Source: a virus. From it: a stretch of 24,241 nt of DNA. A program made the position numbers and the translations under genes. Of the stretch, positions 2,077-23,415 are shown piece after piece (within the stretch, counting starts at the first letter, position 1; each line of letters starts with the position of its first letter). The notes beneath the pieces were generated by a model that was given only the letters and a program-made list of their open reading frames with translations, ran no database searches and was not told the origin of the DNA. Location of the stretch: IMG/VR virus record IMGVR_UViG_3300044625_001057, positions 1-24,241 of that record. One strand, given 5' to 3'.

Positions 2077-4647
2077 GTGGCAACAGGCGCAGTAATCGCC
2101 CGGATTATTACCCAATACTCCGACAAGGGCAGCAAGGCAGCACGTCGCGACATTATGCGACTTGGCAAAGACTTCGATAAGTTTGCCGGGAAAGCCACTA
2201 AAGCATTTGGAGTAGCAGCTGCTGCATCGGCGGCTTTTGCAGTCAAAATTGGTGTCGACGCCGTCAAAGGCGCAATGGAAGACCAGAAGCAACAAGCAGC
2301 ACTAGCAACTGCTCTGCGTAATACAACAGGCGCAACAGATGAAGCAATCGCTGCAACAGTTACATATCTCGACAAATTAGAACTTCTTGTTGGCGTCGAC
2401 AATAATCAGTTGATTCCTTCACTTCAAATTTTAACCCAGGCAACAAAAGATGTGACACAGGCACAAGCGCTACAAGGCTTGGCACTTGATATTTCAGCCG
2501 GAACAACAAAAGATTTAGCTTCTGTTTCACTTGCTCTCGCAAAGGCACTAGGCGGAAATGTTGGCGCACTTACAAGACTCGGCGTTCCACTTGATGCAAA
2601 CGCAGTCAAGGCAAAAGACCTAAATGCAATTCTGACTTCTCTTGGCGAGACATTCGCTGGCCAGGCAGAACAGCGTGCAGGAACCTTTGAATTCAGAATG
2701 ATTAAATTACAGTTAGCATTTAATCAAATCATAGATCAAATAGGCTATGCATTAATTCCAATCTTAGAAGAATTTGCAAAATACATATCTGCAAACGTTT
2801 TGCCAATTATTCAAGAATGGGTAAGCACAAACAAAGAGCAACTTGCACAAGGCCTCAAAGATGTAGGAACGACGCTGATAACCGTTGCAAAAGCAATGGC
2901 TGGCTTCTTCAAAACTATTTCTGACAACATCGGCCTGGTCAAAGCATTTGCAGCAATCTTCATCGGAACAAAAGTTGCCACCGGAATCTACGCGATTGCA
3001 ACCGCGCTCGGAGTATTAAGAACAGCCTTCGCAGCTCAGGCGGCAGCTGCAACAGTCGCCGGCACAGCAACAGCGTTTGCCACAGGCGGTGCTTCGGCAC
3101 TTGCAGCAGCTGCGGCCATTGGAGCATTTGCATTAGCAGCAGGAACTGCTTATGCCGCAATTAATAAGTTAACAGCGGCAACCGACAAAGGCTCAACATC
3201 GACTAAGATCTATAATTCACATTTAAGTGAACTTGCAAGAATTGCAGATCAGGTTGCAGCAACGAACTTCAAAAATCGAAAAATTATTGTTGATACTGTA
3301 AAGACAACAAAAGAACTCACCGCTGCTGAAAAGAAAGCCGCTGAAATGCGTGCTGCAATCAAAAAAGCAGGGTTGGACAAGTTCGGCATCAAGAGTGTTT
3401 CAGACACCGATCCAATTCAGCTCGAAGCAGCACGCCTGAACCTTGTTAAGCAAGGCAACCTTGAAGAACTCAAGAAGGTTGAAGCCTTGATGAAATCTGC
3501 CGAGGCGCAGATGAAGGTCAATCAGAATGCGCAAAAATATGCAGACATTCTCGTTGCACTTGCAGACAACAAGATCAGCGCCGATGAAATTGGCATACTT
3601 GCAGCCAAGTGGGGGATGACTGTTCCGGCAGTCACCAACTATCTTGCAGCTCTGTTGATTGTCAAAGATCAAAAGATTGATGACTCTGAAGTTGCACTCT
3701 TAGCAGCAGCATGGGGCATTTCCAAAGAGGCAGCACAGAAATATCTTGATTTCACAACAGCACTTGAAGATCAAAAACTCAGCGATGAAGAGATCAAGAA
3801 ACTTCAAGATAAGTGGAATTTAACTTACAAAGAAGTCTTGCAATATGCAGACTTTGTTGGAAAATTAGATGATTTTACTCTTTCAGATGAAGAAATCCAA
3901 AAGTTAAAAGATGCTTGGGGTCTTACAACAAAGGGAGTTCTTGATTATACCAAGGAAATTGGCGCTCCTGTTTCATATTCAGGAACTCTCATTGATCCTG
4001 CAACAGCAGCAGAAGCAGGTTGGAACAATGCAAACGCAGCACTTACCGCTTACATCACGCAGCTTGACACAGCAATCACAAAATCGGCAGCAGCCAACGA
4101 AGCCGCCGTTGCCGCCTTTGCAGCAACACAAACGGCAGTTGCAGGGGCAGAGGCAGCAACAGATGCAGCCAATGCATCTATTGCAGCCTCAAATGCGGCA
4201 GCGGCAGCAGCAGGTGCAGCAGCATTAGCAGCAGCAGCACAAGCAGTAGCAATTCTTGAAGAAGCAGAGGCAGCAGCAAGATTAGCCGATGCCCTTTCAG
4301 GTTTAACTCAAGCCGAAAAAGATGCATTTGCTGCTGAAGCAGATGGCAACACAGCAGCACTTGGTGGAACAGGTGGAGATCGAATCAATCCAAATGGCGG
4401 CGATCTGATTGCTCTTGCAAAGGGTGGAATCGTCACATCACCAACGATGGCATTGATCGGTGAAGCCGGCCCTGAAGCAGTAATCCCACTCTCACGCGGT
4501 GGCGGATTTGGTGGCGGAATCACCATCAATATCAGCAATGCCGGATCGGTGATTGCAGAGGCAGACCTTGTTTCAAGCATTCGCAACGCACTCCTTCAGG
4601 CTCAAAATCAAGGGCAAGTGATTACAAAGTCAGCGGTGGCCATCTAA
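2077..4647 (+). CDS. Tape measure protein
   Basis: An 856-residue protein starting at GTG 2077 behind GAGAAGGG. The tape measure fills the tail tube, sets tail length and is ejected ahead of DNA. Evidence: it is the largest gene, it follows the chaperone pair, and the C-terminus has the motif ALIGEAGPEAVIPLSRGGG (about residues 790-808) common in tape measure proteins. Residues 1-280 are helical and Lys/Ala rich; about 290-360 is strongly hydrophobic and Ala-rich, a probable membrane-interacting segment. Residues 497-629 hold four tandem 34-residue repeats, and about 665-750 is a very Ala-rich, coiled-coil-like helix. At the usual 0.15 nm per residue it would predict a tail of about 130 nm. 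The stop overlaps the next ATG (TAATG). Confidence 0.92.
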   Translation: MATGAVIARIITQYSDKGSKAARRDIMRLGKDFDKFAGKATKAFGVAAAASAAFAVKIGVDAVKGAMEDQKQQAALATALRNTTGATDEAIAATVTYLDKLELLVGVDNNQLIPSLQILTQATKDVTQAQALQGLALDISAGTTKDLASVSLALAKALGGNVGALTRLGVPLDANAVKAKDLNAILTSLGETFAGQAEQRAGTFEFRMIKLQLAFNQIIDQIGYALIPILEEFAKYISANVLPIIQEWVSTNKEQLAQGLKDVGTTLITVAKAMAGFFKTISDNIGLVKAFAAIFIGTKVATGIYAIATALGVLRTAFAAQAAAATVAGTATAFATGGASALAAAAAIGAFALAAGTAYAAINKLTAATDKGSTSTKIYNSHLSELARIADQVAATNFKNRKIIVDTVKTTKELTAAEKKAAEMRAAIKKAGLDKFGIKSVSDTDPIQLEAARLNLVKQGNLEELKKVEALMKSAEAQMKVNQNAQKYADILVALADNKISADEIGILAAKWGMTVPAVTNYLAALLIVKDQKIDDSEVALLAAAWGISKEAAQKYLDFTTALEDQKLSDEEIKKLQDKWNLTYKEVLQYADFVGKLDDFTLSDEEIQKLKDAWGLTTKGVLDYTKEIGAPVSYSGTLIDPATAAEAGWNNANAALTAYITQLDTAITKSAAANEAAVAAFAATQTAVAGAEAATDAANASIAASNAAAAAAGAAALAAAAQAVAILEEAEAAARLADALSGLTQAEKDAFAAEADGNTAALGGTGGDRINPNGGDLIALAKGGIVTSPTMALIGEAGPEAVIPLSRGGGFGGGITINISNAGSVIAEADLVSSIRNALLQAQNQGQVITKSAVAI
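3565..3972 (+). repeat. Four tandem 34-codon repeats inside the tape measure gene
   Basis: Units start at 3565, 3667, 3769 and 3871, each 102 bases apart. The protein units begin DNKISADEIG, DQKIDDSEVA, DQKLSDEEIK and DFTLSDEEIQ and each carries a KWG/AWG/KWN/AWG turn followed by a T/S and a second helix ending in a YL/YA/YT pattern. A half unit (NAQKYADILVALA) precedes the first. The DNA has diverged so that only the period and key residues remain; repeats of this kind adjust tail length by whole units. Confidence 0.85.
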
Positions 4648-5897
4648 TGGCAATGCCTGCGCTTGGAGTTTCAGTTGACTTTGCCAACGGCCCTGCCTTC
4701 GGCAACCCACTTATTCTTGGCGATGCTTCAACGCCGCTTGGCATAGGCATCTTGGCAGATGCCGCATCTGATGTTGTTGATGTTTCAGACATCACCCTTC
4801 GAGCATCAATTCGAAGAGGAAGAAACCGAATCCTCAATAAGTTCGAGGCAGGAACCGCCACAGTTGTCCTTGAAGATACCAATGGTGACTGGGTACCCAG
4901 CAACACGGCATCGCCCTATTATGGAAAACTTGTTCCACTTCGCAAGATTCGCATATACGCAGATTACAACTCAGTTCGGTACTACCTTTACTCAGGCTAC
5001 ATTACGAGCTACGACACAAACTTCCAACTTGGACTTGAATCAATCTCAAGTGTGACCTTGCAATGCGTGGATGCATTCCGCCTTTTCTCCAATGTTGCCA
5101 TTTCAACGGTGGCAGGAACTTCGGCAGGGCAGACAACAGGTGAGCGAATGAACAACCTGCTTGATGTGCCAACCTTTCCAACCTCAATGCGAGTAATTGA
5201 CACAGGCGACAGCACCGTTCAGGCAGACCCAGGCACCGAGCGCGACCTTTTGAGCGCCTTGCAGACAATTGAAAACAGCGAATTTGGTGGGTTCTATATT
5301 GACCCCGAAGGCAATGCCACATTCCTGTCTCGCGACACGCTTGCACAAAAAGCAGATGGAACAGCAACGGATTTTGCCGATGACGGCACAGGAATCTCAT
5401 ATCAGGCAATTGACTTTGCCTATGATGACACCCTCATCTTCAATAGTGTCACAGTCAACCGCGAAGGCGGTACGGCGCAGACGGTGCAGGATACGAGCAG
5501 CATTGAAACTTACTTCATACACTCAGGAAAGCGCGAAGGTTTATTGATTGAAACCGATGCCGAGTCTTTGGATCAGGCAAACATGATTCTGCAATCACGC
5601 AAAGATGCCATCTTTCGCATTGACTCCATCGGGCTGAACTTGGCAGATGATGCTGAAACGGCTCGAATCGTTGCAGGGTTAAGTTTAGACATCTTTGACT
5701 TGGTGGACATTACAAAATCAACTCCCGGGTCGGGAAGTGTTACCCTTGAACTATTCGTACAGGGAGTTCAACAAGACATCACGACCAACACTTGGACAAC
5801 AAAATTGTTCACGGCAGAGCCTATAATTCAGGCATTCATCTTGGACTCAGCAACACAAGGAACTTTGGATGGCGCAAACTCTGTGCTTTCCTACTGA
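4647..5897 (+). CDS. Minor tail protein (distal tail/baseplate-like)
   Basis: A 416-residue protein directly after the tape measure, where siphoviruses encode the distal tail or baseplate hub. Residues about 50-135 carry a segment familiar from phage minor tail proteins: RASIRRGRNRILNKFEAG, then VVLEDTNGDWVPSNTASPYYG, then LVPLRKIRIYA and a strand YLYSGYITSY, i.e. an RGR motif followed by a beta domain with a dN-G-dW-P turn. The rest is beta rich with no recognisable enzyme motif. The start overlaps the tape measure stop (TAATG), so translation is probably coupled. The exact structural position (distal tail versus hub) is uncertain. Confidence 0.7.
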   Translation: MAMPALGVSVDFANGPAFGNPLILGDASTPLGIGILADAASDVVDVSDITLRASIRRGRNRILNKFEAGTATVVLEDTNGDWVPSNTASPYYGKLVPLRKIRIYADYNSVRYYLYSGYITSYDTNFQLGLESISSVTLQCVDAFRLFSNVAISTVAGTSAGQTTGERMNNLLDVPTFPTSMRVIDTGDSTVQADPGTERDLLSALQTIENSEFGGFYIDPEGNATFLSRDTLAQKADGTATDFADDGTGISYQAIDFAYDDTLIFNSVTVNREGGTAQTVQDTSSIETYFIHSGKREGLLIETDAESLDQANMILQSRKDAIFRIDSIGLNLADDAETARIVAGLSLDIFDLVDITKSTPGSGSVTLELFVQGVQQDITTNTWTTKLFTAEPIIQAFILDSATQGTLDGANSVLSY

Positions 5898-6615: not shown

Positions 6616-6624
6616 GGGGTTTTG

Positions 6625-7224
6625 ATGTCACCGATCAGTTCAACATTGGCAAACGCCTCTGCATATGGTTATCGAACCTTTGTCGGTGAGACCAACTCTT
6701 ACGAGTCCATTGCTACGACTACTGTCGGATCCACCCCAGTAACTAGCGTTACCTTTTCAAGCATTGTAGGTACCTATACGCATCTTCAACTTCGTATAAT
6801 GGCTCGCACAAATGGCTCAGGTCAAGACAGAGGATCAATAGCATTAAAAATAAATGCTGATACGACTGCTGCAAATTATTCTTATCACTATCTTGGAGGC
6901 GATGGCTCGAGTGCTTTTGCAGGTGGTGCAGCATCTAGCGGTACTAATAACTTAATTGGTGGTATCTCCGCTTACCCAGCGGCTAATGCAACTGCTAGCA
7001 TTTTTGGCGTTGGCATTATCGATATTCTAGATTACGCAGATACTAACAAGCATAAAACTATTCGTACCCTTGCAGGACAAGACCAAAATAGTACTTCAGG
7101 CCGTATCAGTCTTAACTCAGGGCGATTTGGATCATCAAGTGCAATTACATCTATTGAGTTAATTCCTGAATATGGGTCTTTTGTACAGTACTCATCCTTC
7201 GCCCTATACGGAATAAAGGGATAA
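6625..7224 (+). CDS. Putative receptor-binding/tail tip protein, paralogue 1
   Basis: A 199-residue protein. I chose ATG 6625, preceded by AAGGGG (6614-6619); a TTG at 6622 is closer than usual to that site. After about 30 unique residues it shows the shared pattern of the next two genes: YESIATTTVGS, VTFSSIVGTYTHLQLRIMAR, an internal variable part, then SAITSIELIPE and a closing ALYGIKG. This looks like a jelly-roll or lectin-like beta domain found at the tail tip of phages. Codons use more T-ending triplets than the rest of the tail module. Binding to host surface glycan is an inference from fold style and position. Confidence 0.6.
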   Translation: MSPISSTLANASAYGYRTFVGETNSYESIATTTVGSTPVTSVTFSSIVGTYTHLQLRIMARTNGSGQDRGSIALKINADTTAANYSYHYLGGDGSSAFAGGAASSGTNNLIGGISAYPAANATASIFGVGIIDILDYADTNKHKTIRTLAGQDQNSTSGRISLNSGRFGSSSAITSIELIPEYGSFVQYSSFALYGIKG

Positions 7225-7225
7225 C

Positions 7226-7735
7226 ATGCCATCTACTTATGAACCGATCGCTACGCAGACTCTAGGGTCTGCTGCTGCAACTGTTACATTTTCATCTATC
7301 AGCGGCAGTTACACAGACCTTATTCTTGTCTGTGCTGCGCGCTCTGCAACTGCCGCGACAAGTGATTCTTACTTAATGACTTTTAATGGCAACACTACGG
7401 CAATTTATTCTCGTACTCGCTTGCTTGGTACTGGCTCGGCCGCTTCATCTGCTGGGCGCACAGGCGCAACTAATATTGACTTCGAGGGTTTAGCAGGTGA
7501 TACATCTTCGGCTAATACTTTTATGATTGGAAAGATTCAGCTACAAAATTACTCAAACACTACGACTAACAAGACCTGTCTAATTCGTGGCGATGATGCG
7601 AATAACTATGTCTTGGCAACTGTCGGATTATTTCGTAGCACCTCAGCAATTACATCTATCAGCCTTGCAACCTCATCGGCTGCTAACTTTATGACAGGCT
7701 CTACATTTACATTATACGGGGTGAAAAGTGCCTAA
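7226..7735 (+). CDS. Putative receptor-binding/tail tip protein, paralogue 2
   Basis: A 169-residue protein starting at ATG 7226, one base after the previous stop, with AAAGGG upstream. It repeats the same scaffold: YEPIATQTLGS, TVTFSSISGSYTDLILVCAAR, STSAITSISLATSS and a C-terminal TLYGVKSA. The core region between the shared strands differs strongly from paralogues 1 and 3, consistent with diversifying surface loops. No enzyme motif, signal peptide or membrane segment is visible. It is likely to be a virion tail-tip component, and could equally be a fibre chaperone-less structural spike; host binding is not shown. Confidence 0.6.
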   Translation: MPSTYEPIATQTLGSAAATVTFSSISGSYTDLILVCAARSATAATSDSYLMTFNGNTTAIYSRTRLLGTGSAASSAGRTGATNIDFEGLAGDTSSANTFMIGKIQLQNYSNTTTNKTCLIRGDDANNYVLATVGLFRSTSAITSISLATSSAANFMTGSTFTLYGVKSA

Positions 7736-8246
7736 TACATTTACTAAGATTGCATCTAGTACCGTCGGTAGTGGTGGTGCTGCAAGCATAACTTTTTCAA
7801 GCATCCCTAGCACATATACAGATTTACAGATTTTGCTATCTGCGAGAGATACTGATTCTGCAAACAACTGGTATTTACTAAAACTACAATTAAACACAGA
7901 TACAACAGACGGCAATTATTCTACACGTATACTTTTTGGTTTTGGTACTACAGCGGGATCAAGTACAGGCAATAGACAAAATACAGGTTACGTTACAAGT
8001 AATGCTCGGACGGCTAATACTTTTGGAAATTTATCTTTATACATCCCTAATTATGCTGGGAATACGAATAAAAGTTTTAGCACAGACTCAGTAACAGAGG
8101 GAAACGGAACAACTGTAGAAATCTTAGGATTACACGCAGGATTATGGAGTGATACATCTGCAATCAACCAAGTAATTCTTGCTTTAGACGCAGGTAATTT
8201 TGCTCAATATACAACAGCAACACTTTACGGCATCAAAAACTCATAA
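7728..8246 (+). CDS. Putative receptor-binding/tail tip protein, paralogue 3
   Basis: A 172-residue protein starting at GTG 7728, overlapping the previous gene by 8 bases, with GGGG at 7718-7721 as ribosome binding site. It shares TFTKIASSTVGS, ITFSSIPSTYTDLQILLSAR, SAINQVILALDAG and the closing TLYGIKNS with the two preceding genes. The middle is Asn/Thr/Ser rich and diverged. T-ending codons are frequent (for example ACT TTT, GGT AGT GGT GGT GCT), unlike the A- and C-ending codons of the neighbouring tail genes. The three genes together look like a duplicated host-range cassette. Confidence 0.6.
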   Translation: MPNTFTKIASSTVGSGGAASITFSSIPSTYTDLQILLSARDTDSANNWYLLKLQLNTDTTDGNYSTRILFGFGTTAGSSTGNRQNTGYVTSNARTANTFGNLSLYIPNYAGNTNKSFSTDSVTEGNGTTVEILGLHAGLWSDTSAINQVILALDAGNFAQYTTATLYGIKNS

Positions 8247-12205: not shown

Positions 12206-12247
12206 AAAACCCCCATCGCCGTCTACAAAGCGATGGGGGTCTTTCTT
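12206..12247. terminator. Bidirectional intrinsic terminator between convergent operons
   Basis: A perfect 11-bp stem ACCCCCATCGC (12209-12219) / GCGATGGGGGT (12230-12240) with a 10-base loop. Downstream on the plus strand is CTTTCTT; on the minus strand the exit is TTTTCTTATTC, so both have T-rich tails. It stands between the plus-strand sugar genes and the minus-strand operon, which both end here. Confidence 0.88.
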
Positions 12248-12252
12248 CGTCC

Positions 12253-12495
12253 CTAGAACAGATCTGACGGATCCCGAATCGGACGCATTATTCGAGCGAT
12301 CTGCCAGTTGCTGTAAGAAGCAAGCAACCAGTTGGGAAACTGAGGGATACGCGGATCTTTATACGGCAACAAAAGAATGATCATTGACCAGAAACCAAAG
12401 AGGATGCCAAACAAGCTCCAGAACCAAACCCGGCGACCGAAAGCCAGGGCAAGCAGGGCAGCGATGGGAGCAGCCAGGACATTCAACCAACTCAC
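12253..12495 (-). CDS. Small membrane protein, last gene of the minus-strand operon
   Basis: An 80-residue protein starting at GTG 12495 and overlapping the upstream gene stop as GTGA (12492-12495). Residues about 5-20 (NVLAAPIAALLALAFG) and 23-44 (VWFWSLFGILFGFWSMIILLLP) form two probable membrane spans, with a Trp/Phe-rich second span. The C-terminal half is polar with aromatic residues (FPNWLLASYSNWQIARIMRPIRD) and probably cytoplasmic. I do not recognise a family. The gene ends a few bases before the bidirectional terminator, so it closes the operon. A role in superinfection exclusion would fit a small phage membrane protein in such a cluster but is a guess. Confidence 0.7.
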   Translation of the reverse strand: MSWLNVLAAPIAALLALAFGRRVWFWSLFGILFGFWSMIILLLPYKDPRIPQFPNWLLASYSNWQIARIMRPIRDPSDLF

Positions 12496-12623
12496 TTGAT
12501 ATAAGCCTTCAACGCATCGACGATGACTTCAGAAACAGACTTCTCGTCGGCTGCGGCTTTTGCTTTGACAGCAGCCCACAGCTGATCAGAGACTCGGACG
12601 GAACGCGCCTTCTTAACGGCCAT
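12492..12623 (-). CDS. Ribbon-helix-helix DNA-binding protein (43 aa)
   Basis: Reading the minus strand from ATG 12623 gives 43 residues: MAVKKARSVRVSDQLW, then AAVKAKAAADEKSVSEVI and VDALKAYIK. The pattern is a classic ribbon-helix-helix (CopG/Arc type): a basic beta strand (ARSVRVS), helix 1 (DQLWAAVKAKAAAD), a turn with KSVSE, helix 2 (VIVDALKAYI). Such proteins dimerise through the strand, which also contacts the DNA major groove. GGGG lies 10 bases before the ATG. It overlaps the upstream gene by 11 bases and the downstream GTG by 4. It is a candidate autoregulator of this operon or of the divergent early operon; an antitoxin is also possible. Confidence 0.85.
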   Translation of the reverse strand: MAVKKARSVRVSDQLWAAVKAKAAADEKSVSEVIVDALKAYIK

Positions 12624-12777
12624 TAGAGATCACCCCATCAATCATTGCAGAACAAGAGCCATAGCCAGAACCAACCCAGCACAGATCGCGAGTGCCATAC
12701 GTCAAAGCCACCAGTGCAACCAGGGCGATGACAAAGGCGACGCGACGACGACGAACAAACTTGCGATCCATTCTCAT
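12613..12777 (-). CDS. Short basic single-span membrane protein (54 aa)
   Basis: Minus-strand ATG 12777 to TAA 12613-12615 gives 54 residues. It starts with a basic run (MRMDRKFVRRRR), followed by a hydrophobic span VAFVIALVALVALTYG (residues 13-28), then CWVGSGYGSCS with two Cys. By the positive-inside rule the N-terminus stays in the cytoplasm and the Cys-containing tail would face outward, where the two Cys could form a disulfide. AGGTG lies upstream as ribosome binding site, and the start overlaps the previous gene's stop (ATGA). It could also be read as a secreted mini-protein with an uncleaved signal. Function unknown. Confidence 0.7.
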   Translation of the reverse strand: MRMDRKFVRRRRVAFVIALVALVALTYGTRDLCWVGSGYGSCSAMIDGVISNGR

Positions 12778-12947
12778 GACTTCACCTGGCGCAAAACTTC
12801 CAGATAAGAAGGAAGGGCATCAAGGACATTCACCAAGACCGCCTCCATCAATTCAGGATCCTGAGAATCCGAAGCATCGACAAGATTGCGACCAGCCAAA
12901 GTCATGGCATCGCTGATATCAATAAACAAAGACTTCATTGCACCCAT
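12774..12947 (-). CDS. Small acidic helical protein of unknown function (57 aa)
   Basis: Minus-strand ATG 12947 to TGA 12774-12776, 57 residues beginning MGAMKSLFIDISDAMTLAGR, then an acidic stretch DASDSQDPELMEA and VLVNVLDALPSYLEVLRQVKS. It is probably all helical. It starts one base after the upstream gene's stop and ends in an ATGA overlap with the next gene, and GAGGA lies upstream of the start. Its third codon positions are mostly T and G, the mirror image of plus-strand genes here. No family is recognised; a small partner protein or a regulator without a DNA-binding motif is possible. Confidence 0.65.
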   Translation of the reverse strand: MGAMKSLFIDISDAMTLAGRNLVDASDSQDPELMEAVLVNVLDALPSYLEVLRQVKS

Positions 12948-13070
12948 TTATTTATCCTCACTTTTCTCGACTTTAATCCATACGAATCCATCTTGATGAC
13001 GAGTGATCTGATTTAGAATATCGAACCATTGCTGATCAACTTCGGCAGTTATTGTGTAAGTAGCGCTCAT
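12948..13070 (-). CDS. Micro-protein of the minus-strand operon (40 aa)
   Basis: Minus-strand ATG 13070 to TAA 12948-12950, 40 residues: MSATYTITAEVDQQW, then FDILNQITRHQDGFVWIKVEKS and EDK. It has the look of two beta strands around one helix, a miniature alpha/beta domain, with a conserved-looking Trp in each strand. ATGA joins it to the zinc-ribbon-like gene upstream, and its stop abuts the next ATG without a gap. Support comes from this exact packing, since the gene is too short for statistics. Function unknown. Confidence 0.6.
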   Translation of the reverse strand: MSATYTITAEVDQQWFDILNQITRHQDGFVWIKVEKSEDK

Positions 13071-13237
13071 GATTTAACCTCAAAATTTGAATGCTTAGGA
13101 GCACAGAAAACACAGACATTCATCCAGTAGCGCTCACCATTTGGATGTTCATATTGGCGCTTGAAGATTGCCTGCCAGCGACCATCGCAGGCATCGCAAT
13201 CAGGAAGACCGGCAACCTTTGTGTTAGAGATTTTCAT
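13067..13237 (-). CDS. Small zinc-ribbon-like protein (56 aa)
   Basis: Minus-strand ATG 13237 to TGA 13067-13069, 56 residues. Two Cys pairs are visible: PDCDACDGRWQAIFK (Cys14, Cys17) and NVCVFCAPKHS (Cys42, Cys45), with 24 residues between them, a typical spacing for a zinc ribbon. The middle contains a beta hairpin with QYEHPNGERYW. It could bind nucleic acid or protein. AAGGAG is 8-9 bases upstream of the start. It overlaps genes on both sides by ATGA. The closest general likeness is to the many phage zinc-finger mini-proteins of unknown role. Confidence 0.72.
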   Translation of the reverse strand: MKISNTKVAGLPDCDACDGRWQAIFKRQYEHPNGERYWMNVCVFCAPKHSNFEVKS

Positions 13238-13536
13238 GCGAGCCACTCCTTAGCAACAGCAACGACGACAGCAGATGAAATAACTTCGCCTCTGAATGAA
13301 CCACAAGCAGCAACGCCCCAGTTCTCAAACTTCCAGATATGGATCACGCCATCTTCAATAGAAAGACGAACACCGTCGCGAAGACCACGAACACTTCGGT
13401 TGTGGAATTCATAATAACCAGGAGCAACAAGATCAACGCCGCCCCACTTGTTATCAATAGGAAGATCACACTCGCCGTTTAAAGCAAGTTGAGTAGCAGC
13501 TTCAACAATCACATCTTCAACAGTTAAGAATGCCAT
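13234..13536 (-). CDS. First gene of the minus-strand operon, unknown function (100 aa)
   Basis: A 100-residue protein starting at minus-strand ATG 13536. I chose this start because GGGGGG stands 8 bases before it; an in-frame ATG at 13563 and longer open frame to 13791 have weaker support and a compositionally different N-terminus. The protein reads AFLTVEDVIVEAATQLALNG, then LPIDNKWGGVDLVAPGYYEFHNRSVRGLRDGV and IEDGVIHIWKFENWGV, ending EVISSAVVVAVAKEWLA. It looks alpha/beta without membrane segments or known motifs. As the promoter-proximal gene it should be the most strongly expressed of the seven. Its stop overlaps the zinc-ribbon-like start (ATGA). Confidence 0.7.
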   Translation of the reverse strand: MAFLTVEDVIVEAATQLALNGECDLPIDNKWGGVDLVAPGYYEFHNRSVRGLRDGVRLSIEDGVIHIWKFENWGVAACGSFRGEVISSAVVVAVAKEWLA

Positions 13537-13779
13537 TTTCTTACCCCCCACCGGCTGAGACATTCGCTCTTTGCCGATAAGAGAATCTTCGCATACGTCA
13601 ATACAAAGAGCAATACAAAGACACGCCAAAATTGGTTGTTTTATTCCTGTGAACGCCAGGGCCACAAGCGTGAAATGGCAGCCACGATCGGCCAGACGGC
13701 GTGGCGGCCACCGCCAGGGGCCAGCACAAGGCACAATAAGCCGACCAGGGCCAAAGGCCCACCAAACTAGGGGGAACCA
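13537..13779. promoter_or_regulatory. Divergent control region between minus-strand and early plus-strand operons
   Basis: About 240 bases without a convincing gene separate two divergently transcribed operons, so promoters in both directions must lie here or leave from here. The half near the minus-strand operon is AT-rich and holds a 12-base-period direct repeat; a TTGACG (minus strand, complement of 13596-13601) could be a -35 but no good -10 is spaced from it. The other half is GC-rich with small hairpins: TGGCGG-CCA-CCGCCA near 13700-13715 and GGGCC-AAA-GGCCC (13748-13760). I cannot place promoters firmly. Confidence 0.55.
13599..13621. repeat. Tandem 11-base direct repeat, candidate operator
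   Basis: CAATACAAAGA occurs at 13599-13609 and again at 13611-13621, a period of 12 bases. It lies within 90 bases upstream of the minus-strand operon. Ribbon-helix-helix repressors often bind tandem half-sites about one helical turn apart, so the 43-residue protein of this operon is a plausible ligand; this is inference. Confidence 0.5.
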
Positions 13780-13938
13780 ATGCAAACGCAATACCTGATC
13801 TTCGCCGGGGCCATAGCCGCCTGCGGAATCCTTTATTTATTACTCAAGCTCGAAGGCGATCCGATCGACAAAGAGATCGAAGAAGCACAGCAATACGAAG
13901 GCAAGCAGAAGCGGATCAAGAAGGCGCTTGAAAAATGA
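13780..13938 (+). CDS. Small membrane-anchored protein at the head of the early operon (52 aa)
   Basis: A 52-residue protein starting at ATG 13780 behind a strong AGGGGGGA site (13769-13775). Residues 5-22 (YLIFAGAIAACGILYLLL) are one membrane span; the remainder is highly charged, helical and probably coiled coil (DKEIEEAQQYEGKQKRIKKALEK). It overlaps the next gene by ATGA, so it opens a long run of coupled early genes. The layout resembles small phage proteins that tether a complex to the membrane. Function unknown. Confidence 0.7.
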   Translation: MQTQYLIFAGAIAACGILYLLLKLEGDPIDKEIEEAQQYEGKQKRIKKALEK

Positions 13939-14624: not shown

Positions 14625-15085
14625 TCCGTCCGCAACTATTTCTTAACACGATTCCTTTATTTGAAAACGCACTCTGTGCAGATTTAGAGGATCAGGATTT
14701 ATTCTTCCCAGATGGGAAAACAGAAGAGACAAAGCGTCTCCCACAGCTTCGGGCGATTTGCCAAAGCTGCGTAGAAAGAAAGGAATGCTTGGAATACTCA
14801 ATTAGAGAAGAGATCCCGTACGGCATCTGGGGTGGCAAAACGCCAACCGAAAGAGGCGTCGTTCTCAAGAGAACAGAAATTCTCAAGAGGAAAGAACGCG
14901 TAATAAAACTACGCAACAGGGGAGTCTCAACCGAAGATATCGCTCAAATTGTTGGCATCAAGATCCATTCGGTCTACCGAATATTTTCAGATGAAAACAG
15001 GGCGAGAAGGCGAGAAAACCAATCAAACCCGAAAACAGATACACAGTCCGCCGATTTATCGCAATCGTTGGAATCAGCGCAATGA
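14621..15085 (+). CDS. WhiB-family iron-sulfur regulator with an added HTH
   Basis: A 154-residue protein with start ATG 14621 in ATGA overlap and AGAGGA before it (an in-frame ATG at 14603 is less likely). Cys19, Cys47, Cys50 and Cys56 match the four-Cys cluster site of WhiB proteins (ALCADL, then AICQSCVERKECLEY), followed by the signature YGIWGG (67-72) and TERGVVLKR. WhiB proteins bind a 4Fe-4S cluster and the host sigma factor and act on transcription; they are an actinobacterial family. Residues about 92-125 (RVIKLRNRGVSTEDIAQIVG, then KIHSVYRIF) look like a separate helix-turn-helix, which standard WhiB proteins lack. It may redirect host or phage promoters. Confidence 0.92.
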   Translation: MIRPQLFLNTIPLFENALCADLEDQDLFFPDGKTEETKRLPQLRAICQSCVERKECLEYSIREEIPYGIWGGKTPTERGVVLKRTEILKRKERVIKLRNRGVSTEDIAQIVGIKIHSVYRIFSDENRARRRENQSNPKTDTQSADLSQSLESAQ

Positions 15086-15468
15086 CCAGCACGATCTTCA
15101 GTACAGCCCTGAATCCAACCCCGGCGATCCCGGTGGTTTACAAAGAGCGCACAGCGATGCAAAACATCGATCCAAAGCAGCTCGCACGCGAATTATTGAC
15201 CACAGATCAGTTCAAATGTTTCACGCAGCTCGTAGGTAAAGAGAGCGCGTGGAGATCGGTCAATAACCCCACATCAAGCGCAGCAGGCGTGGGCCAACTT
15301 CTAGCCGGCACTTACAAGAATCTAGGAATGCGACACCCCGAGAGCCGGGTGTCACAAACTATCGCTGCATTGGCGTATATTGGAAGAAAATACGGATCCG
15401 GTGGACCATGCGCGGCATGGAAACATTGGAGACACCAAAAACAAAAGACCGGCTACGGCTGGTATTAG
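15082..15468 (+). CDS. Lytic transglycosylase-like muramidase domain protein
   Basis: A 128-residue protein from ATG 15082 (ATGA overlap with WhiB). GKESAWRSVNNPTSSAAGVGQLL (Glu54 the likely catalytic acid) is the lysozyme-like or transglycosylase core motif ES-W...N...S-A-G--Q, followed by TYKNLGM and AALAYIGRKYGS and a closing AWKHWRHQ...GYGWY. It would cut the glycan chain of peptidoglycan. The first 25 residues are not a clear signal peptide. It lies in the early operon, far from the lysis genes, so it may assist entry or exit, or it may be a virion-packaged enzyme. A start at the inner ATG 15157 is possible. Confidence 0.75.
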   Translation: MTSTIFSTALNPTPAIPVVYKERTAMQNIDPKQLARELLTTDQFKCFTQLVGKESAWRSVNNPTSSAAGVGQLLAGTYKNLGMRHPESRVSQTIAALAYIGRKYGSGGPCAAWKHWRHQKQKTGYGWY

Positions 15469-22089: not shown

Positions 22090-23415
22090 ATGATCAATGA
22101 AAACTTGCAGGCGCTCGCAACGCCGATTGACGATTTAAAGCCGCTGCCAGGAAACCCACGCATCGGCGACGTAGCCGCCGTAGCTCGATCGCTTGAGCGC
22201 TTTGGCCAACGAAAGCCAGTAGTTGCCCGGCACGCAGACGGCACCATCATCGCAGGCAATCACACATGGAAAGCAGCGAAGCAACTCGGCTGGACAGAGA
22301 TCGCGGTCGTTTGGACAGACGACGATGACAGCACAGCGAAAGCATTTGCACTAGCCGATAACAGAACCGCCGAGCTTGGAACTTACGATGAGGAAGCATT
22401 GCGCGAGATGATTGCGCAGCTCGTAAACGTTGATCCAGAATTGGTAAGCGACGCAGGCTACAGCGCAGAAGCGATCGCAGAGATTCTAAAGATTCCGGTC
22501 GAAGAGATTCCAATGGCCGGCGACTTAGACGAAGCACCAGCAAAGCCACGCGAAGCACACAGCATAGAAGGCGACGTATGGATTCTAGGGCCGCACAGAT
22601 TAGTCGTCGGAGATTCAACAGACCCGGCAATTTTGGCAAAGGCACTCGACAACAAACTTGCAGATTGCATCTTTACAGATCCGCCATACAACGTGGCATA
22701 CACCGGCGGAACAAACGAGAGCCTGACAATTCAAAACGATTCGATGAGCGATCTAGAGTTTGAATCTTTCTTGCTTGCAACATACGCAGCGATGTACGCA
22801 AACGCAAAAGAAGGCTGCCCGATTTACGTATGCCACGCAGATGGAAGCAGCGTGACATTTAGATCAGCATTCAAAACTTCAGGTTTTATGTTGAAGCAGA
22901 TTCTTATCTGGGTCAAAGACAACTTCACACTTAGCCGTCAAGATTACAACTGGCAACACGAACCAATTATTTACGGATGGAAGCCAGGAGCAGCACATCC
23001 GTGGTTTGGCCCATTCAACGATTCAACCGTTCTAGACTTTGCCACTAAAGACCTGGACACATTGAGCAAGACAGAACTCGTCAAAATTATCGAAACAGCA
23101 CGAAGCACATCAACGGTGATCAGAGAACCACGCCCACGCCGGAACTCAGAACATCCAACGATGAAGCCGATTAGTTTGATTACAAGAGTTCTCAAGAATT
23201 CAGCAAACAGCGAATCGCTTATTCTTGATCCATTCGGCGGATCCGGTTCCACATTGGTAGCAGCTCATTCACTAGGAATGAAAGCAGCGCTCGTAGAACT
23301 CGATCCAATCTACGCAGATGTAATCTGCAAGCGATGGCAGCAACTAACCGGAGTGCAGCCAATCAACGAGCTCACCGGCAAGACTTACGATTTCATAGGA
23401 AGCGAAGATGCCTAA
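22090..23415 (+). CDS. ParB-like domain fused to a DNA methyltransferase
   Basis: A 441-residue fusion with AGGGGGA before ATG 22090. Residues about 8-100 carry a ParB/Sulfiredoxin-type fold (LKPLPGNPRIGDVAAVARSLERFGQ, then VVARHADGTIIAGNHTWKAAKQLG). The methylase follows: FTDPPYN (Asp197-Tyr200) is the catalytic motif and DPFGGSGST (380-388) the S-adenosylmethionine loop. Catalytic motif before SAM loop is the beta-class order, and DPPY favours N6-adenine (N4-cytosine also possible). Target sequence unknown. In phages this fusion is common and may protect DNA from host restriction. It overlaps the small terminase start by 8 bases. Confidence 0.9.
   Translation: MINENLQALATPIDDLKPLPGNPRIGDVAAVARSLERFGQRKPVVARHADGTIIAGNHTWKAAKQLGWTEIAVVWTDDDDSTAKAFALADNRTAELGTYDEEALREMIAQLVNVDPELVSDAGYSAEAIAEILKIPVEEIPMAGDLDEAPAKPREAHSIEGDVWILGPHRLVVGDSTDPAILAKALDNKLADCIFTDPPYNVAYTGGTNESLTIQNDSMSDLEFESFLLATYAAMYANAKEGCPIYVCHADGSSVTFRSAFKTSGFMLKQILIWVKDNFTLSRQDYNWQHEPIIYGWKPGAAHPWFGPFNDSTVLDFATKDLDTLSKTELVKIIETARSTSTVIREPRPRRNSEHPTMKPISLITRVLKNSANSESLILDPFGGSGSTLVAAHSLGMKAALVELDPIYADVICKRWQQLTGVQPINELTGKTYDFIGSEDA

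Follow-up and report, generated by a model that had tools for sequence, protein, structure and literature searches.

We identified a leftward operon of seven small genes (g1 to g7) in the window, that is, the whole 24,241-bp IMG/VR record analysed here, and found the same site and gene core in about 64 uncultured phage contigs, where core genes are fixed beside a swappable set and a conserved, hairpin-forming leader RNA precedes the first gene. The anatomy of this operon is well supported, while its function is one that we infer. Since the core genes are fixed beside exchangeable ones, the cassette is probably used for control of the infected cell. We propose that it is a ribbon-helix-helix (RHH)-autoregulated, translationally coupled host-control/exclusion operon of mostly lytic siphophages, probably of aquatic actinobacteria, a proposal to which we give about an even chance of being correct.

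The seven genes tile 1.28 kb of the minus strand (13536-12253), antiparallel to the rest of the genome (Table 1), and all seven frames called there by the initial annotation were present. When open reading frames (ORFs) of at least 40 aa were chained by junctions of -14 to +3 nt, the longest chain comprised seven ORFs in the operon, compared with a maximum of four in 1000 dinucleotide shuffles and of two along the remainder of the window's minus strand. The junctions from g1 to g7 were, in order, ATGA, ATGA, zero gap, ATGA, an 11-nt overlap (g5/g6) and GTGA; the ATGA, GTGA and zero-gap types agree with the initial annotation, from whose list the 11-nt overlap was absent. Across the called operons, 374 of 494 junctions were -11, -4, -1 or 0 nt, a share that is soft because the gene-call scoring itself favours such junctions, and that favours translational coupling. 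A terminator-like stem follows g7, and a similar sequence was detected in a related contig (L002).

Table 1. Coordinates of the operon, its control elements and its flanking features in the window
Feature	Position	Strand	Description
Divergent gene	13780..13938	+	52-aa membrane protein; starts the plus-strand early block
Direct repeat, putative operator	13599..13616	-	Promoter region; 12-bp period, GTATTG-CTCTTT-GTATTG
Leader	13534..13602	-	69 nt, ending with the g1 start codon; model R1, 91.3 bits
Leader hairpin	13550..13578	-	P1: 13578-13573 with 13555-13550, AUCGGC/GCCGGU; P2 caps P1
Probable Shine-Dalgarno of g1	13544..13549	-	GGGGGG, directly 3' of the hairpin; G run near-invariant
g1	13234..13536	-	100 aa; helix / three-stranded beta / helix protein; 37 distinct relatives
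g2	13067..13237	-	56 aa; two CxxC pairs (zinc-ribbon-like)
g3	12948..13070	-	40 aa; accessory gene; three relatives
g4	12774..12947	-	57 aa; acidic, probably helical core protein
g5	12613..12777	-	54 aa; one transmembrane segment; conserved C-terminal CWxGSGYGSC
g6	12492..12623	-	43-aa ribbon-helix-helix (Arc-like) protein
g7	12253..12495	-	80 aa, GTG start; two transmembrane helices, amphipathic helix, conserved IRDPSDL tail
Terminator	12206..12243	-	Stem of 15 pairs; separates the operon from the convergent epimerase gene

Codon-usage log-odds were uninformative on coding, and dN/dS was used in their place. Compared with the closest relatives, dN/dS was about 0.0-0.6 over all seven genes, with values of 0.26-0.58 for g1, 0.05-0.49 for g2, 0.13 for g3 (three relatives), 0.11-0.26 for g4, 0.12-0.28 for g5, at most 0.05 for g6 and 0.24-0.38 for g7. 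All seven genes are under purifying selection. The frames of g1, g2 and g4 to g7 were open in dozens of related contigs, and that of g3 in three.

With respect to the individual proteins, g6 matched Pfam RHH_1 (E 4.2e-5; 23.8 bits against a curated cut-off of 20.5) and PHROG 6506 (Arc-like repressor; 5.5e-12), which bears out the earlier assignment of a ribbon-helix-helix protein. Searches of Pfam, PHROGs and PADLOC gave nothing significant for the six other proteins, the operon matched no anti-phage defence system model of PADLOC, and no core protein except g6 matched a family of known function. The predicted zinc ribbon, g2, contains two CxxC pairs; since g2 matched neither Pfam nor PHROGs, this name stands on the motif. 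The two membrane proteins were likewise recovered: g5 contains one hydrophobic segment, and the AlphaFold model of g7 (mean pLDDT 72) places two helices in its N-terminal, hydrophobic half, followed by an amphipathic helix and a conserved tail. The structure model of g1 is confident (pLDDT 88), and a Foldseek search of the PDB with it returned no match with E below 0.6. A tblastn search of 50,697 phage records with g6 and g7 gave no match.

Searches of the viral collection detected 2 loci for g1, 4 for the g1 profile, 62 for g7, 80 of 120 for g6 and 55 for g4. After removal of same-contig repeats, 64 operons, including that of the window, were readable from the divergent gene through to the epimerase gene. 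The site is constant, lying between the late epimerase gene on the far side and the divergent WhiB/replication genes on the near side, where TM52, a 112-aa protein, a nuclease-like protein and WhiB are the constant neighbours; the window itself has this order after its divergent 52-aa gene. The RHH gene g6 was present in 64/64 operons and g7 in at least 61, followed by the g5 family (54, with other one-transmembrane proteins at the g5 place in the remainder), the g4 family (51, down to 31-35% identity), the g2-like family (41) and g1 (at least 36). The core consists of the RHH, two-transmembrane and one-transmembrane proteins, usually with the acidic helical and zinc-ribbon-like proteins as well, and persists at identities as low as about 30%. 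Several dozen further families of small genes are gained and lost, chiefly in the stretch that separates the leader from the core. The core order may also differ, as in L128-L143 (transmembrane protein, CxxC protein, g4, RHH, g7).

Just upstream of the coordinates covered by the initial annotation, and absent from it, lie the leader and the promoter repeats. The pattern GTMTKG-N6-GTMTKG occurred 37 times in the 64 loci, compared with 2.3 times in shuffles, and was located just upstream of the leader in most loci having it, with a few occurrences elsewhere. In several far-clade promoters, the palindrome ATAGACAaaTGTCTAT, or a sequence near it, was found between the likely -35 and -10. A scan with the sigma-70 consensus gave no matches. 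The direct repeats and the far-clade palindrome are natural candidates for the g6 operator.

The conserved leader precedes the first gene, whichever gene this is, and ends with GGGGG(G)TAAtAAAATG. Its P1 pairing occurs as AUCGGC/GCCGGU, GUGGGC/GCCUAC, AUCGGU/ACCGAG and mixed forms, and compensatory changes were observed both in P1 (AU/GC, CG/GU and CG/UA) and in P2 (AU/GC). Among 24 leaders, 92.6% of cells pair compared with 82.9% in shuffled alignments, with 26 double changes compared with 9.2. In an alignment of 43 distinct leaders to the model, which leans to structure by construction, 96.4% pair, with 29 double changes compared with 6.2 in shuffles, and pairing falls to 29-55% when the partner is slid. 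These double changes do not represent many independent events, since few lineages share them. The mean z of folding energy was -3.1 for the leaders (38 sequences) and 0.04 for internal starts. The leader is a previously undescribed, hairpin-forming RNA supported by compensatory changes; no Rfam family matched it at the gathering score, and relaxed searches gave weak hits only.

Leader model R1 detected a single site in 17 of the 24 records to which it was applied; the window has one copy, and a second copy was observed in L005 and in many far-clade contigs. In L005 the promoter-leader stands twice within one operon (4141-4209 and 5071-5139), as if moved with a gene, and in the far clade (L128 6814, L136 5360, L143 6566 and others) a second promoter-leader follows g7 and drives further small genes. 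In the far clades the leader sequence differs and a hairpin is predicted at the same place; an arm-swap test of these far-clade hairpins gave no discrimination.

The mean unpaired probability of the Shine-Dalgarno sequence was 0.20 in the long form, 0.41 in an RNA starting at P1 and 0.44 at internal starts, so that its predicted occlusion hinges on which transcription start is assumed. Conserved occlusion of the Shine-Dalgarno sequence was not supported in the far clades (0.46 unpaired compared with 0.50 in shuffles). One could suppose that the leader represents a novel type of cis-regulatory RNA in phages, which switches translation of the whole coupled operon, exposing or hiding the Shine-Dalgarno sequence on a phage or host factor signal, and whose body stays constant as the downstream genes are exchanged; we regard this as a tentative and rather doubtful reading.

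A less probable alternative is that the conserved stretch acts not as an RNA structure but as a DNA element (an operator or recombination site) or as a small upstream ORF. The leader overlaps the likely promoter, and an open frame, MRRFSYRQRANVSAGGG, can be read from an ATG in the leader of the window; however, in several leaders this frame ends early (e.g. at CGGTAA in L010) or is shifted by the run of 5/6 G, and P1 is kept by G-U pairs and double changes, which a DNA palindrome does not favour. As a candidate in its own right, an upstream peptide gene was rejected, since the frame is broken in several relatives and the DNA is conserved there nonetheless. We consider this family of explanations unlikely, and retain the RNA hairpin.

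The mechanism that we propose for the host-control/exclusion operon is as follows. A single promoter would fire the whole operon, and g6 might bind the promoter repeats and autoregulate the operon, and perhaps regulate the divergent early genes as well. Placed at the 5' end of the mRNA or close to it, and abutting the Shine-Dalgarno sequence, the leader hairpin would set mRNA stability or g1 translation, and the overlapping stop and start codons would couple translation of the remaining genes. The membrane proteins g5 and g7 would act at the host membrane, most likely in exclusion of superinfecting phages or in an envelope change, while the swapped soluble proteins would be directed against the host or its defences. 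For the membrane proteins, exclusion is our preferred guess, made by analogy with small phage membrane proteins. The timing of the operon we infer from its position only.

The initial annotation had read the genes as an accessory or host-control module, with immunity, exclusion or host takeover as possible roles. Conservation, exchangeable genes, the divergent position and the terminator uphold an accessory/host-control operon; the part that concerns lysogenic immunity is disfavoured. In a lysogeny or immunity module, g6 would be the prophage repressor, and g5 and g7 would shield the lysogen from superinfection. The RHH of g6 belongs to an Arc-like group, the operon is divergent from and adjoins the early genes, and a tyrosine recombinase is encoded in 5 of 24 related records, suggesting that some family members may be temperate. 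Against this, integrase was absent from the window and from 19 of the 24 records, including 9 of 10 over 30 kb, although records may be fragments; no HTH_3 protein scored above the cut-off, and no clear CI-type repressor was seen in full-length relatives. A search for the type-A leader core in 84,980 species genomes gave two isolated matches only, which we judged to be chance. The pair of integrase and repressor that marks a temperate immunity module was not found in the window, whose record is incomplete, or in most relatives. Because an integrase is missing from most full-length relatives and a clear CI-type repressor from all of them, lysogenic immunity is unlikely as the shared role, and we assign it a low probability. 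The tyrosine recombinase lies in the late region, where that of L002 (6334-7131) is identical to that of L017 (12539-13294); it is absent from the window.

Still more improbable is a replication or copy-control operon of the plasmid CopG style, in which replication genes would be under the control of the RHH protein and the membrane proteins would serve as anchors for replication: in one group of relatives (L077-L092), in which a different one-transmembrane gene replaces g5, a 152-aa stand-alone Prim-Pol (PF09250, 1.8e-29; e.g. L088 4007-4465) lies between g6 and g7, and the 689-aa plus-strand replication gene of the window starts like a Prim-Pol, but the clade of the window has no Prim-Pol in the operon and the cargo consists mostly of small unknown proteins with quick turnover.

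As for the host, Pontimonas phage phiPsal1 was among the nearest isolates by terminase (44%), and WhiB is considered to be confined to Actinobacteriota and to mark actinophages (PMC10202952). Together, WhiB and the likeness to the phiPsal1 terminase indicate an actinobacterial host, and the family probably infects water-living actinobacteria. Since integrase and HTH_3 proteins were lacking as described, WhiB is present and phiPsal1 is among the nearest isolates, a mostly lytic actinophage with a host-handling operon is the simplest reading. No portal or capsid gene was seen in the 24,241-bp window, indicating that its genome is probably incomplete. Other features of the window include two closely similar, tandem tail-tube-like proteins (288-1105), three tandem, paralogue-like genes of about 170-200 aa with a TFSSI.G.YT motif (6622-8246), a transglycosylase-like gene that stands within the early block on the plus strand and apart from the genes for lysis (15082-15468), and a DNA methyltransferase with what looks like a ParB-like domain fused to it (22090-23415).

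The family probably infects abundant, hard-to-grow water bacteria, and its cassette combines a fixed place, a constant core and a control element with changing cargo; it therefore offers a ready catalogue of small proteins that are likely to act on the host. The leader is a searchable handle for finding more such cassettes, and the cassette makes it possible to test whether a phage operon with coupled translation is controlled at the RNA level.

Among known systems, the SAS/ESAS elements of Cluster K mycobacteriophages and Cluster EF Microbacterium phages, with about 10-19 SAS copies per genome and a fixed 13-bp sequence (PMC3203893, PMC7302621), resemble the leader in being conserved over the ribosome-binding site of small non-structural actinophage genes, independently of the gene that follows, and in Cluster K inverted repeats lie just upstream. 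In contrast, the leader described here is single copy, apart from the second copies noted above, and forms a compact hairpin kept by compensatory changes; the leader sequences contain no sequence like the SAS 13-bp GGGATAGGAGCCC, and their copy number also falls outside the SAS/ESAS definition. The SPO1 host-takeover module comprises 26 genes in several operons of a terminal region, with toxicity assayed (PMC6873191). The two are alike, in style and not by descent, as blocks of mostly small, host-directed and largely uncharacterised genes, whereas here one operon of about 7-10 genes carries an RHH regulator and membrane proteins. T4 Imm, from a phage of another host type, may be comparable with g7 in small size and membrane topology. 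This superinfection-exclusion protein is said to resemble a holin (PMC6832632). Finally, g6 is by its sequence a minimal, 43-aa member of the Arc/CopG-type RHH repressors (Pfam RHH_1, PHROG 6506), and differs from these in being encoded near the end of the operon that it may regulate.
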